64,000 nt of DNA from Candidatus Zixiibacteriota bacterium (GTDB taxonomy: Bacteria > Zixibacteria > MSB-5A5 > DG-27): positions 1-64,000 of the forward strand of contig JAUWHO010000021.1 of NCBI GenBank assembly GCA_030605835.1, in the 5' to 3' direction. Below the pieces are notes generated by a model. The model worked only from the letters and a program-made list of their open reading frames with translations. It ran no database searches and was not told the origin of the DNA. The position numbers and the translations under genes were made by a program. Shown piece by piece: positions 1,532 through 62,828 of the stretch. Positions within the stretch are counted from its first letter, which is position 1. Each line of letters begins with the position of its first letter.

Positions 1532-2704
1532 ATGCTTGCCAACGCCATAATTCTTGCCCTCTTGGGTCTTTTCTCCTTCGGTCTGATTTTTTTGGGCACC
1601 ATCTATTGCGCCTACATACTTCTTTTTCTACGAGGGCTTTTCAAACTGAAAACGGGAGCAAACGAGAAGTTGCACACCTTTTCTGTTGTCATCCCTGCCC
1701 GAAATGAAGCAGACAATATCGAGTCCTGCCTGAATTCGGTCTTGAAACAGGACTATCCCGAAGATAAGTTTGAGGTCATCGTCGTCGATGATGGTTCCGA
1801 AGACGATACTCTCGACATCGCACAAAGGTTTTCACGGAGCAACGACAGAGTGAAGACTGTCTCTGTTAACAAGCCTCCCAAAGGAATTTCTCCCAAGAAA
1901 TACGCGGTCTCAAGAGGGATCGAGGTGGCGACCGGTGAGGTCATCGTCACCACCGATGCTGATTGTGTGGTCCAAGCCGGATGGCTTAAGGGATTGAATC
2001 GCTACCTCGAAGATGAGGTCGGAATGGTGGTCGGCTATACTGATTATCGGAAAGAGGAGACCTTCTTCCACAACCTGGAGGCCCTAGATTACTTCTCTCA
2101 TCGGGCATGCGCCGCCGGGGCATTGGCAGCGGGGATCACTTTCACCAGCACCGCCTCAAATCTGGCGTATCGAACGACTCTGTTCCAGGAGGTGGGCAAA
2201 TTCGAAGAGGTCGGGAAATGGATCTCCGGAGACGATGATCTTTTACTGAAACTGGTCAGAACCAAGACGAAATGGAAGATCGTCCCCGCCACCTCGACGG
2301 ACACCTTCGTCACCACCAACGGAAGCAGAAGCTTTTCGGAGTTTCTCTCCCGTAGAATCCGTTGGGCTTCGAAGGGGACCGCTTATGGAGGCACGATTTC
2401 GGCCTTTCTCAAAGCTACGGTAGGATTGTATCTACTCTTCTTAATTCTCTTACCCTTGGCAATCGCTTTCCCGAGCTATCTCCTCTTTTACTGGTATGCG
2501 TTAGGGGCGAAATTGCTCTGCGATTTCCTTTTGCTTCTGAAAGCCGCCAGAATCTTTGGAAGAACTGACCTTCTGAAATACTACCCGGTCGTGGCCTTAT
2601 TGCACCTCCCCTATCTCCTTTTTGTGGTGACTTGGGGGCATTTCGGAGAATTCACCTGGAAAGGACGCAGATTCAAAAGACAGGAGACAAAAGATAGGAA
2701 ATAG
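1532..2704 (+). CDS. Membrane glycosyltransferase family 2
   Basis: Processive-type GT2 of 390 aa. It has an N-terminal membrane helix (about 5-35), a GT-A domain starting SVVIPARNE (about 51-59), VVDDGSEDDT (first Asp motif), TTDAD (the metal-binding DxD equivalent, about 139-143), an acceptor-site GDDDLL, and RRIRW (the Q/RxxRW motif). Three or four C-terminal helices follow. The layout matches enzymes that polymerise or extend lipid-linked sugars at the membrane. Coupling with the neighbouring deacetylase recalls N-acetylglucosaminyl polymer systems, but the product is not determinable. Oddity: the last residues (QETKDRK) and the TAG stop are encoded by a degenerate 7-bp tandem array that continues downstream, suggesting the original 3' end was replaced by repeat DNA. 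Confidence 0.88.
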   Translation: MLANAIILALLGLFSFGLIFLGTIYCAYILLFLRGLFKLKTGANEKLHTFSVVIPARNEADNIESCLNSVLKQDYPEDKFEVIVVDDGSEDDTLDIAQRFSRSNDRVKTVSVNKPPKGISPKKYAVSRGIEVATGEVIVTTDADCVVQAGWLKGLNRYLEDEVGMVVGYTDYRKEETFFHNLEALDYFSHRACAAGALAAGITFTSTASNLAYRTTLFQEVGKFEEVGKWISGDDDLLLKLVRTKTKWKIVPATSTDTFVTTNGSRSFSEFLSRRIRWASKGTAYGGTISAFLKATVGLYLLFLILLPLAIAFPSYLLFYWYALGAKLLCDFLLLLKAARIFGRTDLLKYYPVVALLHLPYLLFVVTWGHFGEFTWKGRRFKRQETKDRK

Positions 2705-2769
2705 GGGGCAGGAAACAGGGGTTAGGGGCACCATTTACCATTAACCATTCACTATTCACCATGCACCAC
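2679..2769 (+). repeat. Degenerate heptamer array (13 units, two unit types in phase)
   Basis: Thirteen consecutive 7-bp units run without a break. The first seven are G-rich (GACAGGA, GACAAAA, GATAGGA, AATAGGG, GGCAGGA, AACAGGG, GTTAGGG). They pass in the same phase into xxACCAT/xxACTAT units (GCACCAT, TTACCAT, TAACCAT, TCACTAT, TCACCAT, GCACCAC). The array begins inside the GT2 reading frame and supplies its TAG stop. Confidence 0.85.
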
Positions 2770-14876: not shown

Positions 14877-14918
14877 GGTTCATGGTTCATGGTTAATGGT
14901 TCATAGTAAATCTACAAG
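14877..14918 (+). repeat. Heptamer array GGTTCAT-type (left flank of IVP gene)
   Basis: Six units in phase: GGTTCAT, GGTTCAT, GGTTAAT, GGTTCAT, AGTAAAT, CTACAAG. The last unit contains the complement of the TAG stop of the four-helix-bundle gene. It is inverted relative to the array at 15272-15306. Confidence 0.8.
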
Positions 14919-15265
14919 GAATTCATTAGCGCACTGATCTGTTTCGACAACCTCCTACACTCATCATATAGCTCCTCATACTGCCCGGAGGTAATATATA
15001 GATCGTTCAGTGCGATTTCAATTATGGGAATACATTCGTAGATAGAGCCTCGAGCCCGTCGCAGGAAATTTCTAAACTCCCTCTTCGTCAAACTGCTCCC
15101 CTCAGCGATGTTCAAAGGAATCGAACTTGAAGCTCTTCTCAATTGAGAGACTAAACCAAACATCTCCTCCTTCGGGAAGCTTTTCGTGATCTTGTAAATC
15201 TCCTTCGAAAAAGAGACGGCCTCCTGGTAAACCTTCAGCTTTTCGAAGTTGAACCTCTCTCCCAT
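14912..15265 (-). CDS. Four-helix-bundle (S23/IVP) family protein
   Basis: Protein of 117 aa matching the 23S rRNA intervening-sequence-protein family, structurally related to Avd of diversity-generating retroelements. It shows F-E-x-L-x-V-Y-Q, the FPKEEMFGLVSQLRRASSSIP block with NIAEGS (about 35-57), and a C-terminal LSKQISALMNSL helix. The molecular role is unknown. It is a stand-alone gene between the SRP RNA and tRNA-Ala, bracketed by inverted heptamer arrays and hairpins, which makes it look like an inserted cassette. No reverse transcriptase or rRNA is nearby. Confidence 0.88.
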   Translation of the reverse strand: MGERFNFEKLKVYQEAVSFSKEIYKITKSFPKEEMFGLVSQLRRASSSIPLNIAEGSSLTKREFRNFLRRARGSIYECIPIIEIALNDLYITSGQYEELYDECRRLSKQISALMNSL

Positions 15266-15271
15266 TCGAGG

Positions 15272-15306
15272 TTACCATGAACCATGAACTATCAACCATG
15301 AACGAA
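15272..15306 (+). repeat. Heptamer array GAACCAT-type (right flank of IVP gene)
   Basis: Five units in phase: TTACCAT, GAACCAT, GAACTAT, CAACCAT, GAACGAA. It is the reverse complement type of the left-flank array and lies just upstream of the four-helix-bundle gene start. Confidence 0.75.
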
Positions 15307-15337
15307 ATTCCTCTCCTTCAGAGAGGGATTTCTCAAA

Positions 15338-15410
15338 TGGAGCTGAGGAGACTCGAACTCCTGACCTCCTGAGTGCGATTCAGGCGCTCTCCCAACTGAG
15401 CTACAGCCCC
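15338..15410 (-). tRNA. tRNA-Ala(CGC)
   Basis: A 73-nt cloverleaf with a 7-bp acceptor stem (GGGGCTG/CAGCTCC) carrying the G3-U70 wobble pair that identifies alanine tRNA. The D-arm starts GCTC, the anticodon stem is CCTGA/TCAGG with loop A-T-CGC-A-C, and the T-arm is AGGAG-TTCGAGT-CTCCT. The discriminator is A73. CCA is not encoded. The anticodon CGC reads GCG. Confidence 0.95.
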
Positions 15411-15580
15411 AGAGAACACAAGCCGAATACCGACCAACCCCTCTCAACCCAATCCCGTGGATCAGAAAATCACCGTCCACCGCGAAATTATAGGCAAAAC
15501 GAAATCCCAGAGCAAGGCCTTTTTCGCTCCAACAGACCGGAATGGCATCGATTTCAAGTCTCATTTCGAAAGCTCAATCG

Positions 15581-24507: not shown

Positions 24508-24576
24508 TGTTCATAGTTAACAGTTCACGGATGATTCCCTGTCTCCTGTCCCCTGTTTCCTGTTATATTATCTTCC
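24507..24576 (+). repeat. Heptamer array (10 units, two unit types in phase)
   Basis: CTGTTCA, TAGTTAA, CAGTTCA and CGGATGA run in phase into TTCCCTG, TCTCCTG, TCCCCTG, TTTCCTG, TTATATT and ATCTTCC. The complement of the HflK stop codon (24568-24570) lies in the last two units. Confidence 0.8.
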
Positions 24577-30796: not shown

Positions 30797-30829
30797 TTAC
30801 TCACCACTCACCGCTCACCAAGAGGTGAG
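30797..30829 (+). repeat. Short heptamer array and hairpin
   Basis: TTACTCA, CCACTCA and CCGCTCA in phase, ending in a CTCACC-aaga-GGTGAG hairpin (30814-30829). Confidence 0.55.
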
Positions 30830-32896: not shown

Positions 32897-34165
32897 ATGT
32901 GCACAGAGAAAATGAATTTCAGATTTTGGGGACCTGTTTTCGTGGTGGCTTTGGTAATAGCCACCAGCGCAGCTCTCGCCGGACCTCCAAAGCTTGAGGA
33001 AGGGGAGAACACCGTCAAAGTCCTCATCGAGGAAGGGGAGGACACCGTCAAAGTCGTCATCAAAGAGGGCGACGATGTGTTGGAGATCAAAATCGACGAA
33101 TCCGGAATCAAGGTGATAACCCTAGGCGGGGAAGAGTACTCCGCCTTGGTCGATGAGAAAAGCCACATCGTGATCGGAAAAGACGGGGTCGTCGTTGGCG
33201 ACCTGAAGATTCTGGAGAGGCTTAAGGATTTCGGAGTCGTCCTTCAGGAAGAAGAGGACGGCGAAGACATCGTAAAGGTGGGGCGCGACATCATCATCGG
33301 GGAGGAGGAAAAAGTCACCGGAGATGTTGTCGCCCTCTGGGGAGACGTCACCGTCAAGGGGAGGGTGGCCGGAAGCGTCGTCGCTGTAAACGGCGACATC
33401 TATGTCACCTCCTCCGGCTACATCCGCAAAGGCGCGACCTCTGTGGGGGGAGAGATAAAAGTGGAACCAGGGGGGAGGGTTCACGGGGAGCAGGTGGAAG
33501 TCCCCTTCCAGGTCGAGTTCTTGGGGAGAGGCTTGACAGATGCAAGGGTCCTGGTCTCAACCGGCAGGCTCCTGTTTGCGGTCGCAGTATTGGTCCTGAT
33601 TTTCATAGCCATCACGGTCATGCTCTCGCTTCTGCCCCGAAATGTGGAGCGCATCAGGCAGAAGATCTCAGAGGAATTCTTAAAATCTTTCCTGTTCGGT
33701 TATCTGATATTCTTGGGTATCATCGTTCTTCTGATATTTCTTGTAATCACCGTAATCGGAATCCCCATAGCCATTCTGATGCCTTTCATTCTGCTTTTCA
33801 CCTTCGCCCTGGGCCTGACCGCGATGTGCCTGTTTTTAGGGGAGAAGGTAAAGGTTCCGATGAACATCTCTACCACCTCCCCCTTCTACATCGCTTTTCT
33901 GGGGGCGTTAGCGATTCAATCTTTCTTGGTAGTGGGAGCGATCTTGGGGGTGATGCCCCCCCTCGGCTTCCTGGGATGTCTGTTTACAGTTGTCTGGGTA
34001 GTCATCTTCTTTGCTTTGGTAATGCCTGCCAGCCTCGGTGGAGTTCTTCTCTCTCGGTTTGGCACCAGGCCTTCTACCAAGGGAGAGACACTGCCTCAGG
34101 AGCCAACACCACCTCCAAGCTCTTCAGAGGATAAGGCCAACGGCTCAGCGACTCCGGGGAGTTAG
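32897..34165 (+). CDS. Bactofilin-like polymer-forming domain with membrane region
   Basis: Protein of 422 aa. A signal-like helix (about 8-28) is followed by a short internal repeat (E-G-E-N-T-V-K-V-L-I, E-G-E-D-T-V-K-V-V-I, E-G-D-D-V-L-E-I-K-I, about 36-66). A bactofilin-type strand region lies at about 130-205 (GDVVALWGDVTVKGRVAGSV and GDIYVTSSGYI). Four or five hydrophobic helices follow (about 215-390), then a Pro/Ser/Thr-rich tail. Known relatives are annotated as polymer-forming cytoskeletal or DUF342-like envelope proteins; the role is unproven. Last gene of the sigma-DUF4097 operon. Confidence 0.8.
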   Translation: MCTEKMNFRFWGPVFVVALVIATSAALAGPPKLEEGENTVKVLIEEGEDTVKVVIKEGDDVLEIKIDESGIKVITLGGEEYSALVDEKSHIVIGKDGVVVGDLKILERLKDFGVVLQEEEDGEDIVKVGRDIIIGEEEKVTGDVVALWGDVTVKGRVAGSVVAVNGDIYVTSSGYIRKGATSVGGEIKVEPGGRVHGEQVEVPFQVEFLGRGLTDARVLVSTGRLLFAVAVLVLIFIAITVMLSLLPRNVERIRQKISEEFLKSFLFGYLIFLGIIVLLIFLVITVIGIPIAILMPFILLFTFALGLTAMCLFLGEKVKVPMNISTTSPFYIAFLGALAIQSFLVVGAILGVMPPLGFLGCLFTVVWVVIFFALVMPASLGGVLLSRFGTRPSTKGETLPQEPTPPPSSSEDKANGSATPGS

Positions 34166-34217
34166 CCTCCCCCATCGGCGGACGATCTGAAGTTGGGACG
34201 GAATGTGGGGGCAGGTT

Positions 34218-34252
34218 TTACTATTCACTATTTACTATTTACTATCTACCGT
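34218..34252 (+). repeat. Heptamer array TTACTAT-type
   Basis: TTACTAT, TCACTAT, TTACTAT, TTACTAT, CTACCGT in phase. The first three bases of the last unit are the complement of the TAG stop of the secretin gene (34246-34248). Confidence 0.8.
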
Positions 34253-35535
34253 TCTTCGACGATCGTGGGGGTGACGAAAATCAGAAGGTCTCGATTGATA
34301 ACCTCCTTTTTCGTATATCTGAAGGCACGTCCCAGAATAGGGATATCCTTCAACAGAGGGATTCCAGCGTTATAGTTCTTTACCTCCTGAGTGGTCAAGC
34401 CTCCGATCACCGCGGTCTGGCCGTTGTTGACGACGACGTGGGTTTCGGCGTTCTGAGTGTTGATGATAATTCCGTTGGCGTCGAACTGATAGGAGCTTCT
34501 CTCCGGCATCAGGTGCATCAGGATCCGGTTCTCGGAGGTGACGTGGGGGGTGACCCGCAACTTGGTCCCCACCTTGTAGAAGGTTATGACCACGTTTCCG
34601 GACTCGTCGAACTGCTTTATGGGGATGTCCTGTCCCATCTGGATGTTGGCCTCCATGTTATCCACGGTGGTTATCTCCGGGTGCCCGATGATTCTCCCCT
34701 TGCTGCTGGAGACGATGGCACTTATGGCGGCGCTGATGTTGAAATCCCTCTCGACGGTGCTGTACTTGAAGATCCCGATGGGGTCGGATACGAGGTCGGC
34801 CGCCGCCTGGGCGACTTGATATTCCGGGGTATAGAGGATGCTGTCGCCGGGGGCGGCTGGAGGATGCTGCACCACTTTCTGGGAGATCGCCGACCAGTTT
34901 ATGCCCAGCTCCGAAAGGTAGGAGGACTCCACCTCCAAAAGCTGAGCGGAAATCCTTATCTGAGCCGTCTCCTTGTCCAGGACTGCTATCATCTCCTCCA
35001 CCTTCTGGATGTTCTCGGGAATGTCCTTGACGATGATGGAGTTAGTGCGGTCGTCGGTGTCCACCACCCCTCTCTCAGATAGAACTGCCTTCAGAGGCTT
35101 TACGAGGTCCTTGGCGGTGGCGTTATCGATGGAGATGATCTTGGTTTGCATCCTGGCTAAGTTTCTCTGCTCCTGCAGATATTTCTCCTGGGCCGCCTGG
35201 TTGGCCATATATCGGGTGGTGGGAACAACCTTTATGAAGCCATCCGATTCCACTCCGGAGAGCCCATGAGTGTTCAAAATGATGTCAAGCGCTTGGCGCC
35301 AAGTCACATCCCGGAGCCTCAGACTCACGCTGTCCCTGACGCTGGGGGCGGGAATGATGTTGACTCCTCCGTACTCGGCCAGATAGGAAAGGACCGAACG
35401 GATGTCGGCATTGACCAGGGTGAGGTTTTTGATCACCTTGTCCGGGCTCTCCTCTCCCCGGGAGGGGGAAAGGATTATGCAGCAAAGGACTAAAAACGGC
35501 GCTATGATCGAAATGCTCCTCTTTATTCTTGTCAT
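34246..35535 (-). CDS. pilQ: Type IV pilus secretin PilQ, short form
   Basis: Outer-membrane secretin of 429 aa, shorter than the usual 600-750. After a signal peptide it has an STN/N0 domain (NADIRSVLSYLAEYGGVNI, about 38-56), a Secretin_N (N1) domain (about 130-195) and the secretin core with E-T-H-V-V-V-N-N-G-Q-T-A-V-I-G-G-L and LLKDIPILGRAFR. The N-terminal AMIN repeats typical of PilQ are absent; an AMIN domain instead heads the neighbouring PilP-like gene. Last gene of the pilMNOPQ operon; its stop lies in a heptamer array. Confidence 0.92.
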   Translation of the reverse strand: MTRIKRSISIIAPFLVLCCIILSPSRGEESPDKVIKNLTLVNADIRSVLSYLAEYGGVNIIPAPSVRDSVSLRLRDVTWRQALDIILNTHGLSGVESDGFIKVVPTTRYMANQAAQEKYLQEQRNLARMQTKIISIDNATAKDLVKPLKAVLSERGVVDTDDRTNSIIVKDIPENIQKVEEMIAVLDKETAQIRISAQLLEVESSYLSELGINWSAISQKVVQHPPAAPGDSILYTPEYQVAQAAADLVSDPIGIFKYSTVERDFNISAAISAIVSSSKGRIIGHPEITTVDNMEANIQMGQDIPIKQFDESGNVVITFYKVGTKLRVTPHVTSENRILMHLMPERSSYQFDANGIIINTQNAETHVVVNNGQTAVIGGLTTQEVKNYNAGIPLLKDIPILGRAFRYTKKEVINRDLLIFVTPTIVEER

Positions 35536-38968: not shown

Positions 38969-39010
38969 TAACCACTAACCACTAACCACTAACCACTCAC
39001 TACTAACTGC
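38969..39010 (+). repeat. Heptamer array TAACCAC x4 plus two variants
   Basis: Four perfect TAACCAC units then TCACTAC and TAACTGC, between the pilM promoter region and the GspH-like gene. The most regular array in the window. Confidence 0.85.
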
Positions 39011-39037
39011 TGAAAACGAAGACGTGCCACCAGCTAA

Positions 39038-39517
39038 TCACCTTAGCTTCACTCGTCCGGTGGAGGCCAGAACCTCGATGGTGTAACTCCTGGTGGAGTC
39101 GGCACAACTTCCCAGCTCCAGCGTCCCCGAGGCTGAGGCCGAGCCGTTGGGCCTGAAAACCAAAGTGCGGTTGGGAAAGCTGCAGGAGCGGTATCTGATA
39201 TCGGAGCTCACCGAAATCGGACCCAGGAGGGTGGAATCGCCGGCGTCCAGGATATTGTCCCCGTTCAGGTCATAGAAGAGCGTCAGGGCTTGGAAGGTGG
39301 TGTCAACATAAACCCCTACGTTCCCACTTTCGGTTACCGCGGTGCTGCGGGCCAGCCTGAGGTAAGAGACCTGGTCTCTGGCGTCGGCTCTGAGGCGAAA
39401 ATAGCGCATGCTCGCAAGGAAATCAGGAGCCGCCAGGGCGGCAACGATCCCGACAATCGCCACCGCCGTCAGAACCTCGATCATGGTAAAACCGGATACT
39501 GCTTTCCTTCTGTTCAT
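39038..39517 (-). CDS. GspH/FimT-type minor pseudopilin
   Basis: About 159 aa from the ATG at 39517, which has AAGGGGC upstream. The class III prepilin signal is GFTMIEVLTAVAIVGIVAALA (cleavage after Gly, Glu5 present), followed by a GspH/FimT-like head. The head contains D-L-N-G-D-N-I-L-D-A-G-D, an EF-hand-like calcium loop. Probably a minor pilin that primes pilus assembly. It is downstream of the other minor pilin genes. Confidence 0.88.
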   Translation of the reverse strand: MNRRKAVSGFTMIEVLTAVAIVGIVAALAAPDFLASMRYFRLRADARDQVSYLRLARSTAVTESGNVGVYVDTTFQALTLFYDLNGDNILDAGDSTLLGPISVSSDIRYRSCSFPNRTLVFRPNGSASASGTLELGSCADSTRSYTIEVLASTGRVKLR

Positions 39518-39536
39518 TGTGCCCCTTCTTCGACCC

Positions 39537-40223
39537 TTATCTGATGACCCTGGTCGAGACTCTTTTCTTGTTTGATCTTGTACCATTTCCTATCTCTACC
39601 ACCTTTTGTCGCTTCTTCACAGAGACCTTTTTCTTGGTCATACCGATCTTCAAGGACATGAAGACCCCGGCCAGCAAGAGTGACCCCAAAAGGAGGTAGC
39701 TGAGCGTGCCGGTTTTGGAGATTAGGTCCACCCGATGCGGCTGGAAATAGGTGCCGGACTGAGCGTGAACCAGGGTGGCACTGATGACCTCCAGATAGTA
39801 TTCTACATTTTCATCCGAGAGCAGGTATCCCGGCAATTTATAGGTGAAACTGGTATCGTCAACGATCACCATCTCCCTGGTGAAGAAGGGCTCCCCCCGC
39901 TGGTGACGATAATGTATGACCACCATGGCCTGGGGAGATTTGTGCCTCACCGTCGCCTGCAGAAGGAGGTCTTCCCCTCTTTCACCGTTTTCCAGAGGCA
40001 CGTGTACCATGACGGTCCGGGTCTCTTTGACGATGTTCTGATTGACCCCCTCGGAGAGCTCCCTGGGCAGTTTATCGAGAAAAGGGGCCGCTTTCTCGTT
40101 GGGCAAAAAGATTACAGCGTAAGAGCTACTGACCAGAAGCACCGACAAGATCACAACGGCTACTGATGCTGTCTTGATTCTCCCTCTCATGGCATTCTTC
40201 CTTTCGAAATTGCGTAAGTCCAT
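39537..40223 (-). CDS. Membrane protein with Ig-like domain, unknown
   Basis: Protein of 228 aa: an N-terminal helix (about 17-36), a beta-rich domain (about 60-165; T-V-R-H-K-S, V-V-I-H-Y-R-H-Q, E-Y-Y-L-E-V-I-S) resembling Ig/FnIII-like modules, a second helix (about 178-198) and a very basic tail (KKKVSVKKRQK). GGAGG lies 11 nt before the ATG at 40223; a second ATG at 40190 also has an AGGAAG site. No family recognised. Its place inside the minor pilin cluster suggests a pilus-related role. Confidence 0.65.
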   Translation of the reverse strand: MDLRNFERKNAMRGRIKTASVAVVILSVLLVSSSYAVIFLPNEKAAPFLDKLPRELSEGVNQNIVKETRTVMVHVPLENGERGEDLLLQATVRHKSPQAMVVIHYRHQRGEPFFTREMVIVDDTSFTYKLPGYLLSDENVEYYLEVISATLVHAQSGTYFQPHRVDLISKTGTLSYLLLGSLLLAGVFMSLKIGMTKKKVSVKKRQKVVEIGNGTRSNKKRVSTRVIR

Positions 40224-45177: not shown

Positions 45178-45626
45178 TTTTTTGTCCTCCGCCAGAGCTG
45201 TCCGCAAATGATGTGCCACCTCCCCCTGGGGCCCCTTTTCCGGAGCCATTCTTATCCCCTTATAAATCAACAAGATACCGGCGCGAATTGAGCGGCGTCA
45301 GAGACGCGAAACTATAGCTCCAAAAACCTCAAAATAGGATTGCTCGACCTCGAGGAAGTATGGGAAGCTCACCATACTCCCAGGGGACAGGAGACAGGAA
45401 ACCGGGGACAGGGATATTGCCCCATTTGAGTAGGCAGGGAGCTTGTCCCCCTCCACCCCCTTTAGAAACAGCTAACAGTCGCCAGAGGCCTGCCCGAGGC
45501 AGATCCATTTGGATCCGAACGGAGAGAGCGACCCACTTCATACAGGGAAACACGCAAAAGGAACAGGATTCGTATATGCACCATGGACTTTCAATGAGGA
45601 GTCGTCGAATTAAGGAATTTTTTGCT
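45178..45626. other. Intergenic region between divergent pilin cluster and antiporter
   Basis: It holds a heptamer array (45368-45416) and a palindrome CTGCC-cga-GGCAG directly followed by ATCC-attt-GGAT (45490-45514), a degenerate relative of the double-hairpin elements. A reading frame over the array on the minus strand looks non-coding. No clear promoter for the pilin cluster was found. Confidence 0.5.
45368..45416 (+). repeat. Heptamer array AGGAGAC-type
   Basis: CTCACCA, TACTCCC, AGGGGAC, AGGAGAC, AGGAAAC, CGGGGAC, AGGGATA in phase. The G-rich units match those after the GT2 gene (2679). Confidence 0.7.
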
Positions 45627-47386: not shown

Positions 47387-48712
47387 ATGGTAACTGAGCT
47401 CCCAATGGAAAAGAGTGCCATTTCAGTCTTAGCGGCCCTGAACACCGCCGTCAAAAGAGGTGAGGCCTCCGAGAAGATCTTCGCGGCGGTGGTGGAAGCG
47501 ATCGTCGAAAACCTCGAGGTGGAGGCCGTAATTCTGGAAGTCTCCGCGGAGACGGAAGAGGCCCAGCCTCAGATCTTCGAGGCCGGCAGCGACGACTCCC
47601 GGAGATTACTCAAAAGAGTCACGGGGGAGAGACTGCAAAAGCTCTTCGACCTCTTCCAGGAGGCCATCGGCTTCCAGACTGATAAGGCCAGTTTTTCGAT
47701 CAGAAGGGATCCTCCCACGGCGCTCAAAGCTTTTAAGATACTCTCAGAAGGGGAGCGAGTGGGACAACTCTCCCTGTTGGTGAAAGATGAAACCGCCCCG
47801 GCGAAGTCCCTGGAGGAGTTCGCCAGCTTTCTGGCCTCCCAGCTGGGTCTCCTGTGGCCGATGATTCACGGAGCTGAAGTGAGGAAACCGACCCAAGCCT
47901 CTCTGTATGAACAATTCCGGAACGTGGGGCTGGATTCCCGAAAGCTGCTTCTGAGTCTTTTGGAGCAGGTAAAGGAGAGGCTGAAACCAGAGTTGATACT
48001 CTTAGCTTTTGCGCCTGACAGCCAGGAATATCTGCGAACCTTAGTGATGCCCCAGACTCTTCTGCAGGAAAACCCCCTTTTGAGTGCTCTGCCGGCGGCC
48101 GACACCTCTTTCGGAGAGGTACTCTTCACCCGCAGGCCGCTTTTGCGCTCTTACGCGAAGGAAACCATCAGCAGAATCGATGATAAGCTCTTTGCGGATG
48201 TGGGATTGAGCAGTGGGATCATCGTCCCGGTGTTTTCCCGGGAGGAAGTTGTTGCGTTGCTCTTCGTCGGTTCCAAGAGCATTGAGGAGTTCGTTGAAGA
48301 TGACGCCGGCCATCTGGAGCATCTCGTCCGGGAGGTGGGGGAGATCATCGACAACGTCGTGACTTTCGTGAGCCTCCGGGATGAGTTCGAGGACTTGAAA
48401 CGACGCTACCAGGATGCGGTCATGTCCGAGAGAATGCAGAGCATCGTGGAGACCGCGGTCACCATCAACCACGAAATCAACAACCCCCTGATGGCGATAT
48501 TGGGAAACACTCAGCTTCTGCTTCTGAAGAGCGAGTCTCTGGAGCCGGGGCTTTTGGAGAAGCTGAAGTTGATCGAGCACAGTTGTCTCCGCATCCAGAA
48601 GGTCACCCAGAAGCTGATGGCGATGGCCGAACCTAAAGCCACCCTTTACACCAATGGGCGCAGGATGGTCGACATTACCGAATCGGTCCCCTCCGAAGAC
48701 GAAAGCTGGTAA
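47387..48712 (+). CDS. GAF-HisKA protein lacking the HATPase domain
   Basis: Protein of 441 aa. Two GAF-like domains (about 15-160 and 185-335) are followed by a HisKA dimerisation segment with intact H-box TINHEINNPLMAILGN (about 370-385). It ends about 55 residues later with no ATP-binding N, G1 or G2 boxes. It therefore cannot phosphorylate itself unaided, but could be phosphorylated in trans or act as a phosphotransfer dimer. It parallels the 19777 protein, which has lost the His. Its TAA stop lies in a heptamer array, so the 3' half of a once-complete kinase could have been lost there. Confidence 0.8.
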   Translation: MVTELPMEKSAISVLAALNTAVKRGEASEKIFAAVVEAIVENLEVEAVILEVSAETEEAQPQIFEAGSDDSRRLLKRVTGERLQKLFDLFQEAIGFQTDKASFSIRRDPPTALKAFKILSEGERVGQLSLLVKDETAPAKSLEEFASFLASQLGLLWPMIHGAEVRKPTQASLYEQFRNVGLDSRKLLLSLLEQVKERLKPELILLAFAPDSQEYLRTLVMPQTLLQENPLLSALPAADTSFGEVLFTRRPLLRSYAKETISRIDDKLFADVGLSSGIIVPVFSREEVVALLFVGSKSIEEFVEDDAGHLEHLVREVGEIIDNVVTFVSLRDEFEDLKRRYQDAVMSERMQSIVETAVTINHEINNPLMAILGNTQLLLLKSESLEPGLLEKLKLIEHSCLRIQKVTQKLMAMAEPKATLYTNGRRMVDITESVPSEDESW

Positions 48713-48763
48713 GCGGGTAGCGGTTATTGGTAAGTGGTGAGTGGTTAGTAGTTACTGATTATC
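48708..48763 (+). repeat. Heptamer array GGTAAGT-type (8 units)
   Basis: GGTAAGC, GGGTAGC, GGTTATT, GGTAAGT, GGTGAGT, GGTTAGT, AGTTACT, GATTATC in phase. The first unit contains the TAA stop of the GAF-HisKA gene (48710-48712). Confidence 0.85.
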
Positions 48764-62684: not shown

Positions 62685-62786
62685 TCAAAAAATGTCGCCG
62701 ACCAGTGGGAGTTCAATCAATGCGCAGTGAAGAAAGGCGGACCACTGTCGATCTGAGCAGGGCATCTGACAGAGGCAAGCGCCTTG

Positions 62787-62828
62787 TTCCCTGTCTCCTA
62801 TCTACTGTTTGCTGTTTCCTCTCTTCTC
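62787..62828 (+). repeat. Heptamer array TTCCCTG/TCTCCTA-type (6 units)
   Basis: TTCCCTG, TCTCCTA, TCTACTG, TTTGCTG, TTTCCTC, TCTTCTC in phase. The third unit holds the complement of the tmk TAG stop (62802-62804), and the next three encode its last residues. Confidence 0.8.

Follow-up and report, generated by a model that had tools for sequence, protein, structure and literature searches.

The period-7 arrays of this genome are probably the terminal arms, paired or mostly solo, of small, presumably selfish, IVS-like S23p elements located in transcribed gaps. A complete element would consist of a G-rich heptad arm, an IVP (S23p) gene and a complementary C-rich arm. Inverted heptad (sometimes octad) arrays bracket IVP genes in the window, i.e., the whole 64,000-nt stretch of DNA analysed here, as well as in several phyla, with a predicted closing stem. 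Head-to-head G>C pairs lacking an IVP gene are common and C>G pairs are absent; solo arrays have the same polarity, the 5′ edge of their G strand being the outer edge. Solo arrays share with the arms of S23p elements the unit class, the outer-edge polarity and the head-to-head pairing, and we infer that they and the short-loop pairs descend from the same element as forms without the IVP gene.

Samples and Detection

The window (G000:C25:1-64000) belongs to the focal genome G000, a 2.68-Mb draft in 53 contigs that is 96% complete. It was compared with its congener G001 (52% complete) and with 130 other genomes of the same class. The discovery sample consisted of 864 kb of the focal genome (32%), in which a home-made hexamer model called 704 genes. 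The hold-out consisted of 370 kb on other contigs, partly picked by pattern hits, which biases array density there and leaves polarity unbiased, and the congener sample of 695 kb. Arrays in the window were detected by period-7 autocorrelation, TRF and a phase-aware HMM; dinucleotide shuffles of the 864-kb sample served as the background of the period scan.

Heptad Arrays in the Window

Nine of the ten sites listed in the first-pass annotation were recovered by autocorrelation, TRF and the HMM. The remaining one, at 30797, consists of only three copies (TRF score of 37) and does not reach the threshold of the HMM. The features are as follows, with the method that supports each of them in brackets:

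2678..2719, + strand: G-array of CAGGAGA type, holding the GT2 stop TAG at 2702-2704 (HMM)
2724..2768, − strand: C-array of TTCACCA type, head-to-head (G>C) with array 2678..2719 (HMM)
14877..14911, − strand: C-arm at the downstream end of the IVP element, with CCATGAA heptads in the IVP coding sense, abutting the IVP stop (HMM, arm score, fold)
14912..15265, − strand: IVP (S23p) gene, PF05635 four-helix bundle, 117 aa (Pfam, E 1.3e-33)
15272..15303, − strand: G-arm at the upstream end of the IVP element, with GTTCATGG heptads in the IVP coding sense (HMM, arm score, fold)
24508..24530, + strand: degenerate G-array of TTCATAG and TTCACGG units, left partner of 24534..24564 (sequence; no HMM call)
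24534..24564, − strand: CAGGAGA-type array, its G strand being the coding strand, 3 nt past the HflK-like stop at 24568 (HMM)
30799..30820, − strand: short, weak array of TGGTGAG type, three copies (TRF score 37)
34217..34253, − strand: TAGTAAA-type array holding the secretin (PilQ-like) stop at 34246-34248 (HMM)
38969..39011, − strand: TGGTTAG-type array, 27 nt beyond the stop of the GspH-like gene at 39038-39586 (HMM)
45379..45414, + strand: CAGGAGA-type array, away from stops (HMM)
48703..48754, + strand: TGGTGAG/TGGTAAG-type array holding the GAF-HisKA stop TAA at 48710-48712 (HMM)
62785..62820, − strand: CAGGGAA/CAGTAGA-type array holding the tmk stop at 62802-62804 (HMM)

The genes named at first from the sequence are backed by Pfam (GT2, IVP, Band_7 for the HflK-like protein, secretin for the PilQ-like protein, GAF plus HisKA, and thymidylate kinase), and their stop codons do lie in or at arrays: those at 2702, 34246, 48710 and 62802 inside, the one at 14912 abutting, and the one at 24568 at a distance of 3 nt. 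The window also contains a tandem 33-bp repeat within a coding region (32996-33061, two copies, 93% matches).

A Single Heptad Underlies the Arrays

The 864-kb sample contains 61 period-7 arrays against 0.3 in the shuffles, so the arrays at gene ends are real and non-random. Every other period between 4 and 13 yielded at most five arrays, and 14 and 21 are multiples of 7. The HMM called 85 arrays in the same sample, versus one in the shuffle, and just two of the 85 lie within genes. A phase search showed that every array fits a single cyclic consensus, which reads RRRYRGK on the "G strand". One of its positions is 96% G, one 96% C/T and one 97% A/G, and its log-likelihood is 1784, compared to at most 1092 after permuting the columns within each array. 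The GACAGGA-like, TCACTAT-like and TTCCCTG-like units, distinguished at first as separate types, are therefore variants of one heptad, which is why the phase survives where types switch: the constancy of phase stands, the unrelatedness of the types does not. Between neighbouring units of an array, 25% of sites differ, against 5% for the G position. Stop trinucleotides occur 9.5 times per 100 nt on the G strand and 2.1 times on the C strand. GGG tracts, on which a role for G-quadruplexes would depend, are found in CAGGGAA units and are absent from TAGTAGA, TTCATGG and similar units. A search for the CAGGGAA type over 132 genomes of the phylum retrieved the two genomes of the genus and one single match elsewhere.

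These arrays could also be ordinary heptameric simple sequence repeats, born by replication slippage and persisting where they are harmless. The G orientation would then provide stops that are tolerated in gene tails, and IVP genes would lie in repeat-rich gaps by coincidence. Heptads are the commonest long simple sequence repeats (as cited in PMC4692102 and PMC4679880), and the excess of stop trinucleotides on the G strand fits such an origin. However, independent origins would not yield one consensus, and we regard slippage as an unlikely source of the whole pattern. Loss of mismatch repair as the source of the arrays was rejected, as MutS is present in the focal genome.

Position and Polarity at Stop Codons

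In the discovery sample, 33 of the 85 arrays overlap a stop or sit at most 6 nt from one. The expectation is 2.6 in intergenic DNA, or 11 if a 30-nt gene tail is allowed, and none of 2000 simulations reached 33. No array (0/85) overlaps a start. The G strand is the coding strand in 31 of the 33 stop-adjacent arrays; arrays more than 50 nt from stops are evenly oriented (20/43), and about half of all arrays lie away from stops. With the G strand as reference, its 5′ edge falls between −60 and +9 nt of a stop in 35/54 cases of the discovery sample, 11/28 of the hold-out and 15/33 of the congener. For its 3′ edge, the respective figures are 3/37, 0/22 and 0/22. The same arrangement was encountered on a cyanobacterial plasmid of 245 kb, from Sphaerospermopsis, which carries 17 arrays with some unit types common to the focal genome: the 5′ edge is at most 50 nt from a stop in 11 of 13 cases, the 3′ edge in 0 of 11. 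The link between arrays and gene 3′ ends proposed in the first-pass annotation thus holds genome-wide, in the hold-out, in the congener and on the plasmid. A BLAST search of plasmids with the cyanobacterial heptad gave no match.

Where an array overlaps a gene, the stop is usually a TAG, TGA or TAA belonging to an array unit. In the non-overlapping cases, the array begins 1-9 nt past the native stop and is nearly always G-oriented. The supply of stops was consequently rejected as sole cause: it accounts for the overlaps, not for the arrays behind native stops, and slippage meets the same difficulty. A seed bias was likewise rejected as the cause of the polarity, being too weak: the coding strand has only 1.1-2 times as many seed units as the other strand, and this too speaks against slippage.

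Among pairs of arrays less than 40 bp apart in the three samples, 17 are G>C, four have the same direction and none is C>G. A C-array lies within 120 nt downstream of 23% of the near-stop G-arrays, versus 1-2% of controls; the other 77% lack such a partner.

Genes bearing arrays are followed by long gaps and stand more often in convergent orientation, and some tRNA 3′ ends also have nearby arrays of the same polarity, although these cases are few. All this would suit a functional 3′-UTR element, in which the G-rich array behind the stop acts in the transcript (termination, 3′-end protection or protein binding) and is kept by selection. In two phyla, moreover, the placement at stops is strict and the polarity follows the coding strand, which would suit it as well. 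Against it, the arrays away from stops have an orientation unrelated to genes, and presence is mixed and lineage-specific, as the CAGGGAA search illustrates. A Rho-dependent terminator was rejected: the transcript of stop-adjacent arrays is rich in G and poor in C, and no Rho RNA-binding domain (Rho_RNA_bind) was hit in the focal genome (96% complete).

The IVP Element and Its Relatives

The arrays at 14877 and 15272, which had been counted as independent, are the two arms of one element. They bracket the IVP gene in inverted order (G-arm > IVP > C-arm) and, in the coding sense, the upstream G-type GAATTTCGTTCATGGTTGATAGTTCATGGTTCATGG pairs with the downstream complement CCATTAACCATGAACCATGAACCGAAATTC, with an inverted-arm score of 28.5. 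In the predicted RNA fold, a long stem closes around the ORF, which occupies the loop (−146.9 kcal/mol, z −4.32). The C-oriented array at the IVP stop, which breaks the polarity rule, is accordingly the right arm of this element. The encoded protein matches XCC0516 of Xanthomonas campestris, a solved S23p (PDB 2gsc, E 1.3e-14). The element adjoins tRNA-Ala (15337-15411) and a protein gene. It possesses the S23p (PF05635) ORF and the closing stem of terminal inverted repeats that characterize an IVS but lies outside helices 9, 25 and 45 of 23S rRNA, and because of this location it is kept apart from the classical 23S IVSs. A pair of occupied and empty sites was sought for it and none was found.

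The focal genome has three IVP genes, the one in the window, C32:75561-75996 and C42:85063, and arrays were compared at the first two. The C32 gene begins 3 nt past a G-array, which itself follows the stop of the preceding gene, and has a clear arm upstream only.

IVP loci were also collected from plasmids by protein search and from one viral contig, 24 loci being included in the count; several of the plasmid loci are related, so these are not 24 independent events. They stem from Cyanobacteriota, Pseudomonadota, Bacteroidota, Gemmatimonadota and the viral contig. Relatives in viral contigs were limited to this one locus, and none was found in phages. A period-7 array lies within about 110 nt of an end in 19/24 loci and at both ends in 14/24; in the remaining five, a period-8-like array was called. 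Octads replace heptads at L202, L205, L206 and L207 (Gemmatirosa, Leptolyngbya, Oscillatoria and one Nostoc). With a cut-off of at least 18 for the inverted-arm score, complementary arms are present in 18/24 loci versus 2/325 controls. The latter comprised 222 size-matched genes of the focal genome, of which one scored, namely the window IVP itself, and 86 and 17 genes on cyanobacterial plasmids, of which one and none did. The unit type varies by locus (AGGAGTC, GTAGGGA, GGTGTAG, AAAAGGG, TAGTCTG, AGGACGG and AAGGTTC), and the arms agree within a locus. Two loci, L194 and L206, have direct instead of inverted arrays, and a few others show weak or no complementarity. Two further loci were folded, with predicted z values of −8.3 and −6.7.

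On the plasmids, the IVP neighbours include Cas10/Cmr3, Cas6/Cas4 (twice), NrdB/NrdA and conjugation genes. Since the members of the three named pairs are normally adjacent, the IVP units look inserted. The Cas10/Cmr3 and the two Cas6/Cas4 cases (L191, L193 and L194) place IVP genes within CRISPR operons of cyanobacterial plasmids.

Within the class, the IVP genes at G118 C85, G118 C145, G124 C38 and G008 C34 have arrays on both sides (G>IVP<C), and the one at G023 C134 has an array on a single side; a strict pattern search showed no array at many of the remaining IVP genes of G118, G023, G124 and G008. IVP-less G>C pairs are frequent in G118, with loops of 2-29 nt, and adjacent pairs in G118 and G023, counted by eye, are G>C versus C>G in a ratio of 10:0. 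Among 58 genomes of the class, YRGK arrays occur in 11/21 IVP-positive and 2/37 IVP-negative ones (Fisher p 8e-5, phylogeny ignored), and IVP copy number correlates with heptad arrays (Spearman 0.65, rising to 0.70 when the focal genus is omitted, phylogeny again ignored). Slippage leaves both the 17:0 head-to-head pairs and the complementary arms specific to IVP genes unexplained.

Divergence between the Two Species

Most arrays of the focal genome have a counterpart at the same site of the congener, with about 86% identity, e.g., array 48703..48754. Indels are mostly whole units: three units (21 bp) of array 45379..45414 are absent in the congener, and 7-bp differences were seen at two other arrays. 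Between arrays, whole spacers are swapped or missing, and the spacer at 24534..24564 differs entirely; the spacers differ wholly or by whole units, with no clean empty site among them. At C22 57079-57291 and C51 336656-336870, about 140-230 bp lie between arrays of the same orientation where the congener has one continuous array, the result of either an inter-array deletion or an insertion into an array.

Arrays diverge at 0.108 per site and their flanks at 0.113, and the G position changes between the species about as often as the others. At this level of comparison, no function-like constraint is visible on the arrays, with low power at single positions. Whole-unit indels and flank-like divergence are what slippage predicts. 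The latter weighs against any 3′-UTR function, Rho-type termination included, and we consider such a function quite improbable.

Adjacent units differ at 25% of sites, compared to 11% between the species, which suggests that the heterogeneity of units was largely there at array birth. This, like the 17:0 polarity, would be expected from a telomerase-like healing of breaks, in which broken 3′ ends are extended with G-rich heptads by a polymerase, and head-to-head G>C arrays arise when two such ends are joined. However, no RVT_1 reverse transcriptase was hit in the focal genome, and neither the complementary arms at IVP genes nor the correlation between IVP genes and arrays is explained, which makes break healing very improbable.

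Comparison with Known Repeats

The kinship with the cyanobacterial heptad repeats (STRR) that was proposed at first is right: the Sphaerospermopsis plasmid arrays share period, polarity and some unit types. Like STRR and the TAACTGA repeats of Beggiatoaceae, the arrays are intergenic, built of heptads and patchy across phyla (PMC4679880). The Beggiatoaceae arrays are mostly upstream of starts and were read as translational regulators (PMC4679880). For Xanthomonas and Nostoc, Rehm et al. (2015) described single heptads with a similar stop bias (PMC4692102). The present arrays meet that description of heptameric SSR/STRR, with period 7, dispersed intergenic location, a preference for positions ≤50 nt from a coding-strand stop and a 5′ neighbouring ORF closer than the 3′ one. 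The Rehm repeats were explained by G-quadruplexes, without a link to S23p or inverted arms (PMC4692102); many arrays here, in contrast, have no G-tracts and mix unit types.

In the 23S IVS of Coxiella burnetii, heptameric repeats directly precede the S23p ORF, the ends are inverted repeats and RNase III excises the sequence (PMC4990558). The elements described here are similar in the S23p ORF within the loop of an inverted-repeat stem, the tandem heptads directly upstream of it and the sporadic distribution. They differ in location, the window element lying beside tRNA-Ala and the plasmid relatives between protein genes, as well as in having heptad arrays as both arms and far more numerous arms without IVP.

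REP elements with Y1 transposases (RAYT) offer another parallel, as small, dispersed REP-like hairpins share gaps with the arrays and some abut them. Unlike the arrays, they have no heptad units and are not enriched at stops (eight versus seven expected), and they were rejected as the driver of stop adjacency. The REP-like element GTAGCGGAAACCTTYAGGTTTCCA has compensatory stem variants, for example at C51 87096-87119, C31 153366-153389, C15 21475-21498 and C22 57221-57244. Its copies often follow the stop of the gene upstream by 20-150 nt, on that gene's coding strand, and six of the 18 copies in the focal genome abut heptad arrays. Further paired palindromic families occupy gaps of this genome, e.g., TGTTGGTATCGGACG...ACCAACAG and GGTAGCCCGGTGGCC, at C15 62678-62752, C6 68589-68722, C51 85963-86046 and many other sites. 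Up to four RAYT-like Y1 transposase matches were obtained. Small dispersed repeats in Nostoc heptads are reportedly the subject of a separate paper.

Classification and Implications

Among the three explanations first offered for the association with gene ends, insertion fits best, the arrays matching the inverted end repeats of S23p elements; Rho-type termination is unsupported, and erosion of gene tails alone leaves the strict polarity unexplained. On each of its outer sides, an element presents the 5′ edge of a G strand. Located after a stop, it therefore puts a G-rich array beside that stop in the coding sense, and the arm structure accounts for the polarity without invoking transcription. 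The G-strand units contain TAG, TGA or TAA, and a gene is therefore re-terminated when an element is inserted, or an array grows, into its tail. Gain or loss of whole units preserves complementarity, and heptad arms therefore stay paired after slippage. If the parallel with the IVSs of 23S rRNA extends this far, RNase III may cut the stem, which would make the element mild for the host transcript.

Several observations count against reading the arrays as arms of S23p elements. Three IVP genes in the focal genome face hundreds of array units, and the 77% of near-stop G-arrays mentioned above have no opposing arm within 120 nt. The congener (52% complete) is rich in arrays and has no IVP match, and 10 of the 21 IVP-positive genomes lack a YRGK array. 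Moreover, the members of G>C pairs in the focal genome usually differ in unit type, unlike IVP arms.

The elements are best classified as a variant of S23p/IVS elements, distinct from the 23S IVS, that would account for the heptad repeats. Beyond the Coxiella case, no prior link of heptad arrays to S23p genes was found in the open-access literature. A wider proposal, that bacterial heptad repeats in general (STRR, the Rehm repeats and others) are arms of S23p elements, selfish residents of transcribed gaps that S23p builds or mobilises and of which the 23S IVS is the best-known niche, is tentative and, in our opinion, rather doubtful. S23p has a solved structure, a pentamer (2gsc), and to our knowledge no assigned function. 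If heptad arrays are arms of S23p elements, the heptad repeats and the function of S23p would become one puzzle; this function, the way IVSs spread in 23S rRNA and the heptads at stop codons would be testable together, and array-bearing genomes would give hundreds of natural study sites.
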